This document shows, piece after piece, positions 10,541 through 37,933 of a stretch of DNA of 50,358 nucleotides; within the stretch, counting starts at the first letter, position 1; each line of letters begins with the position of its first letter. The position numbers and the translations under genes were made by a program. A model generated the notes under the pieces. It was not told the origin of the DNA. It saw nothing but the letters and a program-made list of their open reading frames with translations, and did not search any database. The stretch is from Chitinophaga pinensis (lineage in GTDB: Bacteria; Bacteroidota; Bacteroidia; Chitinophagales; CAMDFR01): contig CAMART010000001.1 of NCBI GenBank assembly GCA_945860705.1, positions 183,486-233,843 of the forward strand, given 5' to 3'.

Positions 10541-12733
10541 TTGCTAAACTCTTTTCCTTTTTATAAACAACGAGATGCTATGGACTGTGGGGCTACTTGC
10601 CTCAAGATGATAGCCAAGCATTATGGCAAGAGTTACGAACTTCCTTATTTAAGAGAAAAAAGTTTTATTGATAGAGAAGGGGCCTCACTGAGTGGTTTGG
10701 CGTATGCTGCAGAAGCTATTGGTTTTAAAACTATGGCTGTAAAACTTCCTTTTGAAGATTTGATAGCAGAAGATGTAGTGCCTTTTATAGCACATTGGCG
10801 ACAGAGACATTATGTAGTGGTATACAAAATCACCAAAACACATATCTACATAGCTGACCCAGCTCACGATAAAGTGAAAATGACTCATAAAGAATTTCAG
10901 GATGGCTGGTATAGTGATGTAGAAAATGGAAAGCAAGAAGGTGTGGCTCTTTTGCTTGAAGCTAGTCCAGATTTTTATAAAATGGAAGGGGAGAAAACCG
11001 ACAAAAAATCTTTTGGTTTTTTACTCTCTTATTTTTTGCCTTATAAAAAATTATTGATTCAACTCTTTATAGGCTTACTGGCTGGGAGTTTGTTACAGTT
11101 GATTTTTCCGTTCCTTACTCAGTCTCTAGTTGATTCTGGTATTCAATATAAAGATGTAAATTATGTCAATCTCATATTGATAGCTCAACTAGTTATGTAT
11201 ATAGCACAGGTGAGTGTTGAGTTTATACGTGGATGGATATTGCTGCACTTAAGTGCACGAATTAATATTTCTTTAGTTTCTGATTTTCTGATTAAACTCA
11301 TGAAACTACCTTTAGGATTTTTTGATTCTAAAATGGTAGGCGACTTACTACAACGCATCAATGACCATGCACGAGTAAAAGATTTCCTTACTACCTCCAC
11401 ACTCTCTACTATTTTTTCTTTATTCAATTTAGTGATATTTGGTATTGTATTATTTATTTTCAATCCTACTATATTTATCATATTCACTATTGGTGCATTC
11501 TTATATCTTGCTTGGGTATTATTATTTTTAAAGAAAAGAAAAGAGTTGGATTATAAAATGTTTGATCAGTTGAGTGCCAACCAAAGCAAAGTATATCAAC
11601 TGATACAAGGCATACAAGAAATAAAACTCACGGGAAGCGAAATGCAAAAACGTTGGGAATGGGAGCGAATACAAGCTCGTATGTTTCGTATCAATATACA
11701 AAACCTCTCTCTAGAACAATGGCAAAGTGCTGGTGCTACACTCATCACACAAGTGAAAAATATTTTAATTTCTTTTATCTCTGCAAAAGCAGTAATCAAT
11801 GGTAGTATGACTTTTGGTGAAATGCTTTCTGTGCAATATATCATCGGTCAGTTGAATGCTCCATTGAATCAGCTTATCGGATTTATACAAATAGCACAAA
11901 ACGCAAAAATAAGTCTAGAACGTATTGGCGAAATACACAACAAACAAGAGGAAGAAGAAGACAAAGGAACAGGCTTAGAAATAATACCAGAAAATAAAAC
12001 GATACATATCAGCAATCTTAGTTTTCAATATGGTGGACCCGACAGCGATAAAGTACTAGATAATATTTCGCTAGTGATACCATCTGGAAAAATCACTGCT
12101 ATAGTTGGTACAAGTGGTAGTGGTAAAACTACCTTAATAAAATTGTTGTTGAAATTCTACAATCAATACAAAGGCGAGATAAAAATAGACCATACCAACC
12201 TCAATAATCTGAGCGCACGTACCTGGAGAGAGCACTGTGGTAGTGTGATGCAAGATGGATATATTTTTAGTGATACTATCGCAAACAATATTGCAGTAGG
12301 TGATGAGCACATCAATAAACAGCGATTGCTACAAGCTGTGCAAATAGCCAATATTCAAGAATTTATAGATAGTCTACCTCTCGGCTACAATACCAAAATA
12401 GGACAAGAAGGAATCGGTGTGAGTCAAGGACAAAGACAACGTTTATTGATAGCGCGTACTATTTATAAAAATCCAGATTATTTCTTTTTTGATGAAGCCA
12501 CCAATGCGCTAGATGCCAACAATGAAAAAGTAATAGTAGAAAACCTCAATAATTTCTTTAAAGGAAAAACGGCTGTGATTGTAGCACACCGACTGAGCAC
12601 AGTGAAAAACGCTGACAATATAATCGTACTCGAAAAAGGCAAACTCATAGAACAAGGCACACACCAAGACTTAGTAAATAAAAAAGGCGCTTACTACGAA
12701 CTGGTAAAAAATCAATTGGAACTGGGGAGTTAG
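10541..12733 (+). CDS. Peptidase-containing ABC exporter (C39 PCAT)
   Basis: A 730-residue bacteriocin-type exporter that cleaves double-glycine leader peptides and exports the cargo. The N-terminal C39 protease has Gln10, catalytic Cys16 (MDCGATC), His90 (QRHYVVVY) and Asp106 (YIADPA), so it looks active. Six membrane helices occupy about 160-430. The ABC domain has Walker A GTSGSGKTT (about 523-531), a signature region GVSQGQRQR (about 626-634) with VSQGQ in place of LSGGQ, and Walker B YFFFDEATNALD. The start is TTG at 10541, right after an in-frame TGA; the only nearby ATG (codon 14) would remove part of the protease motif. The usual HlyD partner is not adjacent; a candidate lies at 41304. 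No GG-leader peptide gene was found nearby. Confidence 0.92.
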   Translation: MLNSFPFYKQRDAMDCGATCLKMIAKHYGKSYELPYLREKSFIDREGASLSGLAYAAEAIGFKTMAVKLPFEDLIAEDVVPFIAHWRQRHYVVVYKITKTHIYIADPAHDKVKMTHKEFQDGWYSDVENGKQEGVALLLEASPDFYKMEGEKTDKKSFGFLLSYFLPYKKLLIQLFIGLLAGSLLQLIFPFLTQSLVDSGIQYKDVNYVNLILIAQLVMYIAQVSVEFIRGWILLHLSARINISLVSDFLIKLMKLPLGFFDSKMVGDLLQRINDHARVKDFLTTSTLSTIFSLFNLVIFGIVLFIFNPTIFIIFTIGAFLYLAWVLLFLKKRKELDYKMFDQLSANQSKVYQLIQGIQEIKLTGSEMQKRWEWERIQARMFRINIQNLSLEQWQSAGATLITQVKNILISFISAKAVINGSMTFGEMLSVQYIIGQLNAPLNQLIGFIQIAQNAKISLERIGEIHNKQEEEEDKGTGLEIIPENKTIHISNLSFQYGGPDSDKVLDNISLVIPSGKITAIVGTSGSGKTTLIKLLLKFYNQYKGEIKIDHTNLNNLSARTWREHCGSVMQDGYIFSDTIANNIAVGDEHINKQRLLQAVQIANIQEFIDSLPLGYNTKIGQEGIGVSQGQRQRLLIARTIYKNPDYFFFDEATNALDANNEKVIVENLNNFFKGKTAVIVAHRLSTVKNADNIIVLEKGKLIEQGTHQDLVNKKGAYYELVKNQLELGS

Positions 12734-12744
12734 TTTTGAGTTTT

Positions 12745-12790
12745 GTCACGCCAAGGCGTGATTGAATGCTAAATGTTGAGTGTTGAATTT
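12745..12790 (+). repeat. CACGCC palindrome joined to 7-bp repeat array
   Basis: The palindrome GTCACGCCAAGGCGTGAT (12745-12762) is followed in register by four 7-base units from 12763 to 12790 (TGAATGC, TAAATGT and two more). It starts 11 bases after the exporter stop codon. The same composite structure occurs at 36882-36926. Confidence 0.6.
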
Positions 12791-13553: not shown

Positions 13554-13623
13554 GTTATCTAACATCTAATATCTAGCGTCTAGTATCTAAATTCTTGATA
13601 CTTGATACTCACATCTTGATACT
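13554..13623 (-). repeat. 7-bp repeat array downstream of trhA
   Basis: Ten consecutive 7-base units in exact register, each ending CT on the plus strand (AATATCT, AGTATCT, TGATACT and so on). Read on the minus strand, half of them fit TAGATnn. The array begins 4 bases after the trhA stop and is oriented with that gene. Confidence 0.65.
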
Positions 13624-13627
13624 GCTT

Positions 13628-14257
13628 CTAAATAAAACTTTTAATCACTGCCATATAGTGGCCTAGGCTACCGAGTAGCACGAATATATGCCACATAGCA
13701 TGATGGTAGGTGTATTTTTTCCAAGCGTAGAATATAATACCAAAAGTATAGCAGGCTCCACCAAAAGCTAACCACACTAGAACTCCGTGAGGTACGTCTG
13801 AGAGTAGTCTATTAGCAAAGAGCAATATCATCCAGCCCATACCTAAATATATGGCTGTAGATACTCCATCCCATTTACCTGTAAAAAATATTTTGAATAC
13901 TGTGCCTATAAGCACTAAAGCCCAAACTCCTGCAAGTGCTAAGTGACCTTTTGTATCATTGAAATAGAAAAGCATGAATGGAGTATAGCTACCTGCTATC
14001 AAAAAATAAATAGATATATGATCAAAAGCTCTCAGCACTCTTTTGGTGAGTGGATGCGAAAAACTATGATAGAGTGTAGAGCAGAGATAAACCATCATCA
14101 AACAATAGGAATAAATAGCCGTACTCCATATAGCTTTCATACTGCCAGTTTTTACTGCAAGTGCAAGTGCTATAGGTACTCCAACTAGGCACATTAAAAA
14201 ACCAATGCCGTGGGTGACAGCATTGGCTATTTCTTTTTTTACTTCTATTGAGTTCAT
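13628..14257 (-). CDS. trhA: Hemolysin III family membrane protein (TrhA/PAQR)
   Basis: A 209-residue inner-membrane protein with seven predicted helices. Family motifs include ANAVTHGIGFLM at the start, STLYHSFSH with conserved Ser and His (about 60-68), DHISIYFLIAGSYTPF (80-95), and a late HHAMWHIFVLLGS. These His and Asp residues are the metal site of the PAQR fold. In other bacteria the family has been linked to membrane energetics; true hemolysis is doubtful. It sits 8 bases behind dnaN on the same strand, so is probably cotranscribed. Confidence 0.9.
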   Translation of the reverse strand: MNSIEVKKEIANAVTHGIGFLMCLVGVPIALALAVKTGSMKAIWSTAIYSYCLMMVYLCSTLYHSFSHPLTKRVLRAFDHISIYFLIAGSYTPFMLFYFNDTKGHLALAGVWALVLIGTVFKIFFTGKWDGVSTAIYLGMGWMILLFANRLLSDVPHGVLVWLAFGGACYTFGIIFYAWKKYTYHHAMWHIFVLLGSLGHYMAVIKSFI

Positions 14258-29319: not shown

Positions 29320-29883
29320 ATGAAATACACTTCTATAATTTATTTATCCCTATTCATCGTGCTTATTACTAGTGCTTGTGTCAACGATTTGAAAAAAATA
29401 GATGAAATAGCCTCACAAAAAGACCTCGGACAAGAAGTAGGCAAAAATGTAGAAGTGCTAGTTAGTAATGACGGTATCATGCGTATGAAAATCACTGCTA
29501 CCGAAACCGTTCATCACACTCAAGGTAAAACCTATACGGAGTTTCCCAAAGGAATAAAAGCATACTCCTATAACCCTAATGGAAATATAGAAAGCTCACT
29601 CACTGCAAAATATGCAGTGCTCGACGAAGTGAGTGGCCAAATACAGGGCATGACTGCCAAAAACGATGTAGTGGTAGTAAATGCTAAAGGAGAAAAACTA
29701 AATACTGAAGAACTTCAATGGAACCAACAACAAAAAATGATTCACACTGTAGGGTTTGTAAAAATAACCACTCCAGAACAAATCATCTATGGAAAGGGTT
29801 TAGATGCTAAGGAAGATTTTAGTGAGTATACGATACTAGAAGTGACAGGCAAAGTAAAAGTAAATAGTAGTGAGATCCCATAA
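29320..29883 (+). CDS. lptC: LPS export lipoprotein LptC
   Basis: A 187-residue lipoprotein (signal ends LITSAC, Cys20) with the LptC/OstA-like beta-jellyroll: ESSLTAKYAVLDEVSGQIQGM, then ELQWNQQQKMIHTVGFVKI and IIYGKGLDAKEDFSEY. It bridges the LptBFG ABC transporter to LptA in LPS transport. In Bacteroidota it is a lipoprotein rather than a membrane-helix protein, as seen here. It is followed by a 7-bp repeat array and then the small membrane protein and CNNM gene, a familiar order in the phylum. Confidence 0.88.
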   Translation: MKYTSIIYLSLFIVLITSACVNDLKKIDEIASQKDLGQEVGKNVEVLVSNDGIMRMKITATETVHHTQGKTYTEFPKGIKAYSYNPNGNIESSLTAKYAVLDEVSGQIQGMTAKNDVVVVNAKGEKLNTEELQWNQQQKMIHTVGFVKITTPEQIIYGKGLDAKEDFSEYTILEVTGKVKVNSSEIP

Positions 29884-29885
29884 AC

Positions 29886-29906
29886 TAGATACTAGATTTT
29901 AGATTT
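29886..29906 (+). repeat. Short 7-bp repeat array after lptC
   Basis: Three 7-base units (TAGATAC, then TAGATTT twice) in exact register, starting 2 bases after the lptC stop codon and in the same orientation as the gene. It matches the TAGATnn units found at three other loci in this window. Confidence 0.55.
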
Positions 29907-36522: not shown

Positions 36523-36873
36523 ATGAAAGCAAGAATACTTTTACTTATCTGTTTCTTATCATTCAGCACTTTGTTTGTAGCAAACGCTACTACATCTGAA
36601 AATACAGATCCTCAACAAAACGATATTACTAATTTTACTAAACAAATCGACTGCAAAGTATATCCTACTGCTGTAGTAAATAATTTGAATGTAGATATCA
36701 ATAGTGCTTCTTCTGCACGTGTGGAGATAACTAATCTTATTGGTAATGTGTTTTACAAAAAAACTACTGAAGAAAATTTAGATATCGATTTATCAAATCT
36801 TGCATCTGGTATGTATCTAGTAAATATATACGTAGGTGATGCTAAAATTACTAAAAGAATCTATAAACAATAA
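36523..36873 (+). CDS. Very small secreted protein consisting mainly of a T9SS C-terminal domain
   Basis: A 116-residue exported protein with signal peptide (about 1-22). After a short linker (TTSENTDPQQND) nearly all the mature chain (about 40-116) fits the type A T9SS sorting domain: VYPTAVVNNLNVDINSASSA, then EITNLIGNVFYKK, ASGMYLVNIY and KITKRIYK. There is no room for a cargo domain. It may be a free sorting domain, a surface peptide or a decoy of the T9SS; this is speculation. Confidence 0.72.
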   Translation: MKARILLLICFLSFSTLFVANATTSENTDPQQNDITNFTKQIDCKVYPTAVVNNLNVDINSASSARVEITNLIGNVFYKKTTEENLDIDLSNLASGMYLVNIYVGDAKITKRIYKQ

Positions 36874-36881
36874 CAACATTA

Positions 36882-36926
36882 GTCACGCCATGGCGTGATA
36901 GATATTAGACGTTAGATATTAGACTG
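36882..36926 (+). repeat. CACGCC palindrome joined to 7-bp repeat array
   Basis: GTCACGCCATGGCGTGAT (36882-36899) is followed by four exact 7-base units from 36899 to 36926, TAGATAT alternating with TAGACGT/TAGACTG. It starts 8 bases after the stop of the small T9SS-type gene. Same layout as 12745-12790. Confidence 0.65.
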
Positions 36927-37588: not shown

Positions 37589-37933
37589 TATTAGATAAAG
37601 TGTTATTTTTCTTTGTGTAAAAAACTACACAGTGTGCTCAGAGAAGCACAGAGTTACTCAAAGATTTTTAAAGGTTTTCTTTGTGAACTTTGTGTCTGCT
37701 TTGTGTCCTTTGTGTAAAAAAAACTACACAGTGTGCTCAGAGAAGCACAGAGTTACTCAAAGATTTTTAAAAGGTTTTCTTTGTGGCCTTTGTGTCTGCT
37801 TTGTGAACTTTGTGACTACTTCGTGAACTTTGTATAAAAAAAACTACGCAGAGTTCGCAAAGAAGCACAGAGATACACAGAGAGAAAATCATTTTATTCG
37901 TTTAAGCTTTGTGAACTTTGTGTAAAGAAACAA
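37589..37933. repeat. CTTTGTG/CACAGAG tandem repeat region
   Basis: No gene. A unit beginning AACTACACAGTGTGCTC starts at 37623 and again at 37722 (period 99), nearly identical; a third, diverged unit beginning AACTACGCAGAG starts at 37842 (120 bases on, enlarged by an extra internal subrepeat). Inside each unit lie about 10-12-base subrepeats CTTTGTGAA/CTTTGTGTC and an inverted counterpart CACAGAG, so the RNA could fold extensively. Frames through it are artefacts. Similar CTTTGTG-rich intergenic repeats are widespread in Bacteroidota. Confidence 0.85.

Follow-up and report, generated by a model that had tools for sequence, protein, structure and literature searches.

The STRR of heterocystous cyanobacteria and the heptanucleotide long simple sequence repeats (LSSR) are dispersed, intergenic tandem heptanucleotides for which slippage has been proposed as the origin, and to our knowledge a gene-end polarity rule forms no part of their definition. 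Integron attC sites are located immediately after a gene, always in one orientation, and need inverted arms. The closest described arrays are those of Rehm et al. (2015; PMC4692102), degenerate 7-nt tandem arrays found in the gaps between genes and built of GGGAATC heptads in Xanthomonas and GGGGA(C/T)T heptads in Nostoc. They are rare between divergent genes and lie ≤50 bp past stop codons (sense) or before start codons (antisense), stop overlap included, at 28 nt from the gene behind and 160 nt from the gene ahead (PMC4692102). Their length and sequence vary while the gene context is kept, the Xanthomonas repeats form inverted pairs, and most of the arrays are transcribed, with no function identified (PMC4692102). 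MacGregor (2015; PMC4679880) described TAACTGA heptamer repeats in Beggiatoaceae, Cyanobacteria, and a few Bacteroidetes; these are dispersed and intergenic, patchily distributed, show 7-nt indels between strains, and in some Bacteroidetes are mixed with other heptamers. TAACTGA mostly stands in forward orientation shortly before start codons, and related heptamers are rare in that system (PMC4679880). Beyond these two papers we found no literature on heptads behind stop codons.

Here, we describe heptad arrays in a window of 50,358 nt (the whole stretch of Chitinophaga pinensis DNA that was analyzed) and in the genome it comes from (G000; 2.94 Mb in 46 contigs). The statistics are based on whole-genome pattern searches plus sequence stretches, and genes were called as long open reading frames (ORFs), so that start positions are approximate. 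The window contains the following arrays, palindromes, and genes.

10541..12733, + strand: C39-peptidase ABC exporter gene (Pfam Peptidase_C39, ABC_membrane, ABC_tran), with the TGAATGY array downstream
12746..12761, strand not applicable: palindrome TCACGCCAAGGCGTGA, immediately preceding the TGAATGY array
12763..12790, + strand: array TGAATGC TAAATGT TGAGTGT TGAATTT behind the exporter gene, a different heptad flavor (TGAATGY type)
13554..13623, − strand: heptads downstream of trhA in a single 7-nt register, first of the AAG type and then five of TAGAYRY (13589 to 13558)
13628..14257, − strand: trhA/HlyIII family gene (Pfam HlyIII, 2.4e-37), array downstream
29320..29883, + strand: lptC (Pfam LptC, 5.7e-10), array downstream
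29886..29906, + strand: array TAGATAC TAGATTT TAGATTT, units at 29886, 29893, and 29900
36523..36873, + strand: short gene whose product has a type IX secretion sorting tail (Pfam Por_Secre_tail, 1.9e-10), array downstream
36883..36898, strand not applicable: palindrome TCACGCCATGGCGTGA, immediately preceding the TAGAYRY array
36899..36923, + strand: array TAGATAT TAGACGT TAGATAT TAGA, units at 36899, 36906, 36913, and 36920

An earlier note on this DNA had reported four arrays of TAGATnn units. Three of them consist of TAGAYnn heptads, and the fourth (12763-12790) proves to be a 7-nt array of the TGAATGY type; genome-wide the unit is better written TAGAYRY, a consensus that fits 82.6% of 138 internal units. 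The array at 29886 starts 2 nt past the lptC stop codon, with the next ORF 25 nt further on, and the one at 36899 starts 25 nt past the stop of the Por-secretion-tail gene. Behind trhA, TAGA starts at 13589, 13582, 13575, 13568, and 13561 (− strand) in exact 7-nt register. The first of these is 38 nt past the stop, and since most of the intervening 38 nt are in-register heptads with AAG every 7 nt, the full array begins about 4 nt past the stop; ten AG dinucleotides are spaced by 7 nt along it. The palindrome TCACGCCAAGGCGTGA occurs at 15 places genome-wide. The window also holds a tandem intergenic repeat behind a methyladenine glycosylase gene (37611-37833), with a 99-bp unit in about two copies, built of CTTTGTG-type 9- to 11-mers.

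Units this short and AT-rich could be expected by chance, as a composition artifact of AT-rich intergenic DNA, and a strict-threshold lag-7 scan of the window alone finds no window that passes. Whole-genome searches of G000 nevertheless return 97 matches to TAGAN3TAGAN3TAGA (TAGANNNTAGANNNTAGA), whereas its reversed control gives 22; with the strict YRY form TAGAYRYTAGAYRYTAGA the counts are 69 and 0. Because the genome-wide loci had been picked for arrays, we also sampled 631 kb without bias, taking contigs C1, C2, and most of C3 whatever their content. In this sample, period 7 (and its double, 14) is the only tandem period in excess, with 43 windows against about 5 in shuffled sequence, whereas lags 5, 6, 8, and 9 stay near the shuffled level. 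These reversed-pattern and shuffled controls and the period specificity, along with the orientation statistics and the array-free congener described below, refute a chance origin, to which we assign next to no probability.

Genome-wide, G000 contains 41 TAGA arrays of at least three units, with 3 to 9 units each. None of the 41 lies inside an ORF. In 35, the first unit is no more than 50 nt from the gene behind (33 in sense past a stop codon, 2 in antisense next to a start codon), whereas the last unit comes that close to the gene ahead in 2; the median distances are 13 nt and 96 nt, respectively. Under a slightly different ORF threshold, 37/41 arrays are in sense with the gene behind (p=1e-7). 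The unbiased 631 kb has 14 TAGANNNTAGA groups in gaps; every one follows a 3' end in the sense direction, 13 of them at no more than 50 nt. The earlier note's claim that orientation and position go beyond chance is thereby confirmed (69 versus 0 strict matches, 37/41, and 14/14), and a location of the arrays in 3' untranslated regions (UTRs) is well supported; the genome-wide comparison it proposed found the arrays strand-biased, outside ORFs, and clustered past stops. A replication-strand signal such as KOPS was rejected, as array orientation flips between neighboring loci along with the genes. Within arrays, CG-type and TA-type units tend to alternate (1 CG-CG neighbor pair observed versus 5.2 expected). 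Two 993-amino-acid paralogues (L040 and L053, position 3001) carry the same array past their stops with aligned units that differ by transitions only, giving a small view of array divergence.

The main rival to the reading that we prefer is a functional 3'-UTR element, in which a factor would read UAGA (or NAG) every 7 nt past the stop and thereby act on mRNA stability, 3'-end processing, or localization. The 14/14 sense placement at 3' ends agrees with such an element, as does the position of intrinsic terminators, which, where detected (4/33 cases only), follow the array and in no case separate it from the stop codon. The genes behind the arrays, however, have no evident common function. The heptads as such show little predicted RNA structure: for two stretches of array sequence alone, z relative to shuffles is 0.05 and 0.11, and where predicted structure is strongest it stems from the palindrome or the terminator.

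Comparison of four congeneric genomes (the focal G000 with G001, G002, and G003) gives further points on both sides. TAGA-array matches number 60 in G002, 0 in G001, and 1 in G003, and no period-7 excess was found in G003 for any flavor (1 window). Among orthologous 3' ends of G000 and G002, whose orthologues have a mean amino acid identity of 75%, 6 have arrays in both genomes, 9 in one only, and 101 in neither (Fisher p=1.4e-5); since loci in both genomes were partly picked for arrays, the array frequency is raised and the strength of the association may be affected. At shared sites TAGA is kept while the remaining bases differ, and unit number differs as well. The recurrence of arrays at orthologous 3' ends with TAGA conserved speaks for the 3'-UTR element. 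With respect to the window, G002 also has an array behind trhA, the lptC array is absent from the orthologous place in the three congeners, and G002 has no TAGA array at the Por-secretion-tail gene site. At one orthologous site, G002 has TAGAYRY where G000 has AAG-type heptads plus a palindrome. Arrays have thus come and gone, but they recur downstream of the same genes.

As a candidate partner we considered the product of a single RRM_1 gene encoding a glycine-rich tail (L154; G000:C2:68728-69159), detected in both array carriers and undetected in the two non-carriers, whose genomes are incomplete. An RRM RNA-binding protein as partner fits the four congeners, but the family shows no link with arrays across 60 Bacteroidia genomes, so that this candidate was rejected, and the specific binding protein suggested in the earlier note finds no support. 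Weighing these points along with the antisense arrays of other Bacteroidia (below), we regard the 3'-UTR element as a rather unlikely explanation.

TAGAYRY is one of several heptad flavors in the focal genome, others including AAGTATC, AAGTTYA, and TTGAATG. The pooled counts for five flavors over the 631 kb are 44 with the stated strand reading from a 3' end against 14 with it reading from a 5' end (p=1e-4), 3' ends being slightly under half of gap borders. On contig C1, we count 36 triple 4-mers at spacing 7 in tandem gaps, 8 in convergent gaps, and 0 in divergent gaps. Across all flavors of the focal genome, 28/38 arrays read from the gene into the gap, which makes this a strong tendency and no law.

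These flavors bear on the possibility that the arrays are stop cassettes, with TAG every 7 nt providing stops in all three frames past the gene to catch readthrough and frameshifts. Since 7 mod 3 = 1, three units cover every frame; TAG stops are more common among array genes (16/37 versus 105/517, p=0.003), and in six genes the first array unit is the stop codon itself. The idea fails for the AAG-type heptads (TATCAAG repeats), which occupy the same places and contain no stop in any frame. Moreover, 5'-antisense arrays are not translated outward, and conservation of Y-R-Y is not needed for stops. We therefore consider a stop cassette improbable.

Short palindromes of 14 to 16 bp are embedded in arrays of matching flavor, where they come after WAG or TTG: TCCCGAAGCTTCGGGA within TAG/AAG arrays, TCACGCCNNGGCGTGA mainly within TTGAATG arrays and also in TAG arrays, and CTGACNNCNGTCAG within AAGTTCA arrays. 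Outside the heptads, a palindromic element of about 70 nt, AACCCAAATT...TCCCGAAACTTCGGGA...TTAGTTGGGTT, is present in L137, L138, L139, L145, and L146 (around 1501) and is possibly a MITE or REP.

Beyond the genus, the strict pattern was found in 30/395 Bacteroidia genomes. The arrays of these other genomes also tend to start beside a gene, and 5'-antisense placement is common among them: among arrays whose gene behind is at most 50 nt away, the numbers of 3'-sense and 5'-antisense arrays are 12 versus 9 in the class sample, 8 versus 5 in G097 and G199, and 56 versus 20 in the named genomes. G133 fits less well, as this 50-nt limit holds for 3/9 of its arrays. A 400-kb stretch of G097, a complete genome, taken without bias, contains 11 heptad arrays, each closer to the gene behind than to the gene ahead (6 reading from stops, 5 from starts); inverted heptad pairs in G097 flank mid-gap REP-like palindromes. 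L376-L395 (G097:C1 9000-9450 and 339950-340260) show REP-like palindromes of the GTCATTGCGAGGAACGAAGCAATC type with inward-facing heptad arrays at both sides of the gap. Overall, from a quarter to almost half of gene-adjacent arrays in other Bacteroidia are antisense beside a start codon, where the mRNA holds the complement of the unit; this counts against the 3'-UTR element and leaves a strictly 3' element, as in the earlier note, unsupported as a general description. The 5'-antisense placement points to reading from the gene into the gap as the general rule, of which the focal genus shows mainly the 3' half.

Placement of this kind could also protect gene borders, if an incoming polymerase transcribed the complement of the array (UCUA every 7 nt, C-bearing and G-poor), leading to Rho loading and to the arrest of antisense or readthrough transcription. 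Such protection would account for both the 3'-sense and the 5'-antisense arrays, the incoming RNA being the C-bearing strand in either case. However, arrays of 20 to 70 nt are short for a Rho loading site, several flavors have no YC dimers, and an array at a 5' end would put the same signal into the transcript of the gene itself; we judge this reading slightly less probable still than the stop cassette.

The TAGAYRY pattern occurs in many phyla. We do not claim TAGAYRY as a single sequence spread horizontally across them, since the reversed-pattern control also occurs in the Bacteroidia sample, at roughly half the pattern's rate outside G000, and common heptad arrays of arbitrary unit can therefore account for the cross-phylum pattern. 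In G021, near-perfect TAGAGTA arrays of about 18 to 20 units stand at the ends of contigs C7, C8, and C13, which suggests that such arrays probably break assemblies.

Set beside the described systems, the arrays share with STRR and LSSR a dispersed, intergenic occurrence as tandem heptads, with period 7 in excess and many intergenic copies, and differ from them in unit sequence. The GTTRRRY core of attC resembles RYTAGAY; on sequence inspection, however, the arrays are direct repeats with no paired inverted arms bearing GTTRRRY/RYYYAAC cores, and integron attC sites were rejected. Compared with TAACTGA, which is mainly ahead of starts, TAGAYRY-type units are degenerate and lie past stops. The likeness to the Rehm repeats is one of position, with 35/41 arrays in G000 within 50 nt of a gene as stop-sense or start-antisense. 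Unlike those repeats, TAGAYRY arrays in the focal genus are nearly all at 3' ends, hold short palindromes, and belong to a Bacteroidota host. In addition, the TAGAYRY unit has single Gs only, whereas the Rehm repeats carry three-G tracts able to form G-quadruplexes, so that the present arrays are not members of the quadruplex-forming class. The earlier note knew of no named element of such structure, although heptad arrays of the same geometry, with other units, were published in 2015 (PMC4692102). Gene-end heptad arrays as a kind are already known; the TAGAYRY unit, the embedded palindromes, and the absence of G-tracts are what differ.

We put the chances at about even that the arrays are dispersed, composite repeats of intergenic DNA whose effect in the 3' UTR is mild at most, and not parts of a dedicated regulatory system. 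They would form a degenerate 7-nt tandem family of several flavors, with TAGAYRY as the 3'-end flavor, sometimes punctuated by 14- to 16-bp palindromes and running from the gene boundary into the gap. Units may multiply and turn over through 7-nt duplication and deletion, by slippage or unequal recombination; of the slippage-prone end element that the earlier note had offered among its options, this 7-nt repeat evolution is the plausible part. Arrays would spread from gap to gap by a putative copying step, and units would later diverge, chiefly through transitions; their ancestral form was perhaps similar to TAGACGY. No copying enzyme for the arrays was found. REP elements mobilized by RAYT (Y1 transposases) have palindromes beside a guide tetranucleotide and a cognate RAYT gene; here Y1/RAYT transposases are disfavored as the driver, as Y1_Tnp genes occur in array carriers and non-carriers alike and their counts do not track arrays.

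Behind genes, such arrays would be transcribed as 3' UTR, ahead of the terminator where one is found. Recurrence behind the same genes at 75% amino acid identity, together with the polarity, makes neutral spread alone insufficient and favors selection. Site and polarity may be kept by selection on the transcribed RNA, and a heptad-reading factor is possible, or they may follow from the symmetry of a composite element that consists of heptads, a palindrome, and heptads in inverted orientation and spans the gap from one gene to the next. Most arrays of the focal genome have no visible inverted partner of the same flavor, which counts against the composite form.

Unrelated heptad sequences in distant bacteria thus display the same gene-end geometry, and the quadruplex reading published for the Rehm repeats (PMC4692102) cannot be its general reason, since TAGAYRY forms none. 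Tentatively, and with more doubt than confidence, we suggest that outward-reading gene-end heptad arrays in Bacteroidota, Xanthomonas, and cyanobacteria represent one general class of bacterial element, set by period 7 and polarity and not by sequence. If so, the flavors (GGGAATC, TAGAYRY, AAGTTYA, and others) would be products of one unrecognized process or of a single role under selection at gene borders. A rule by which 7-nt repeats run outward from the neighboring gene is simple, and it would point toward a shared mechanism of origin or toward selection at transcript borders. For annotators, there is also a warning that 3' ends and stop codons next to such arrays change quickly.
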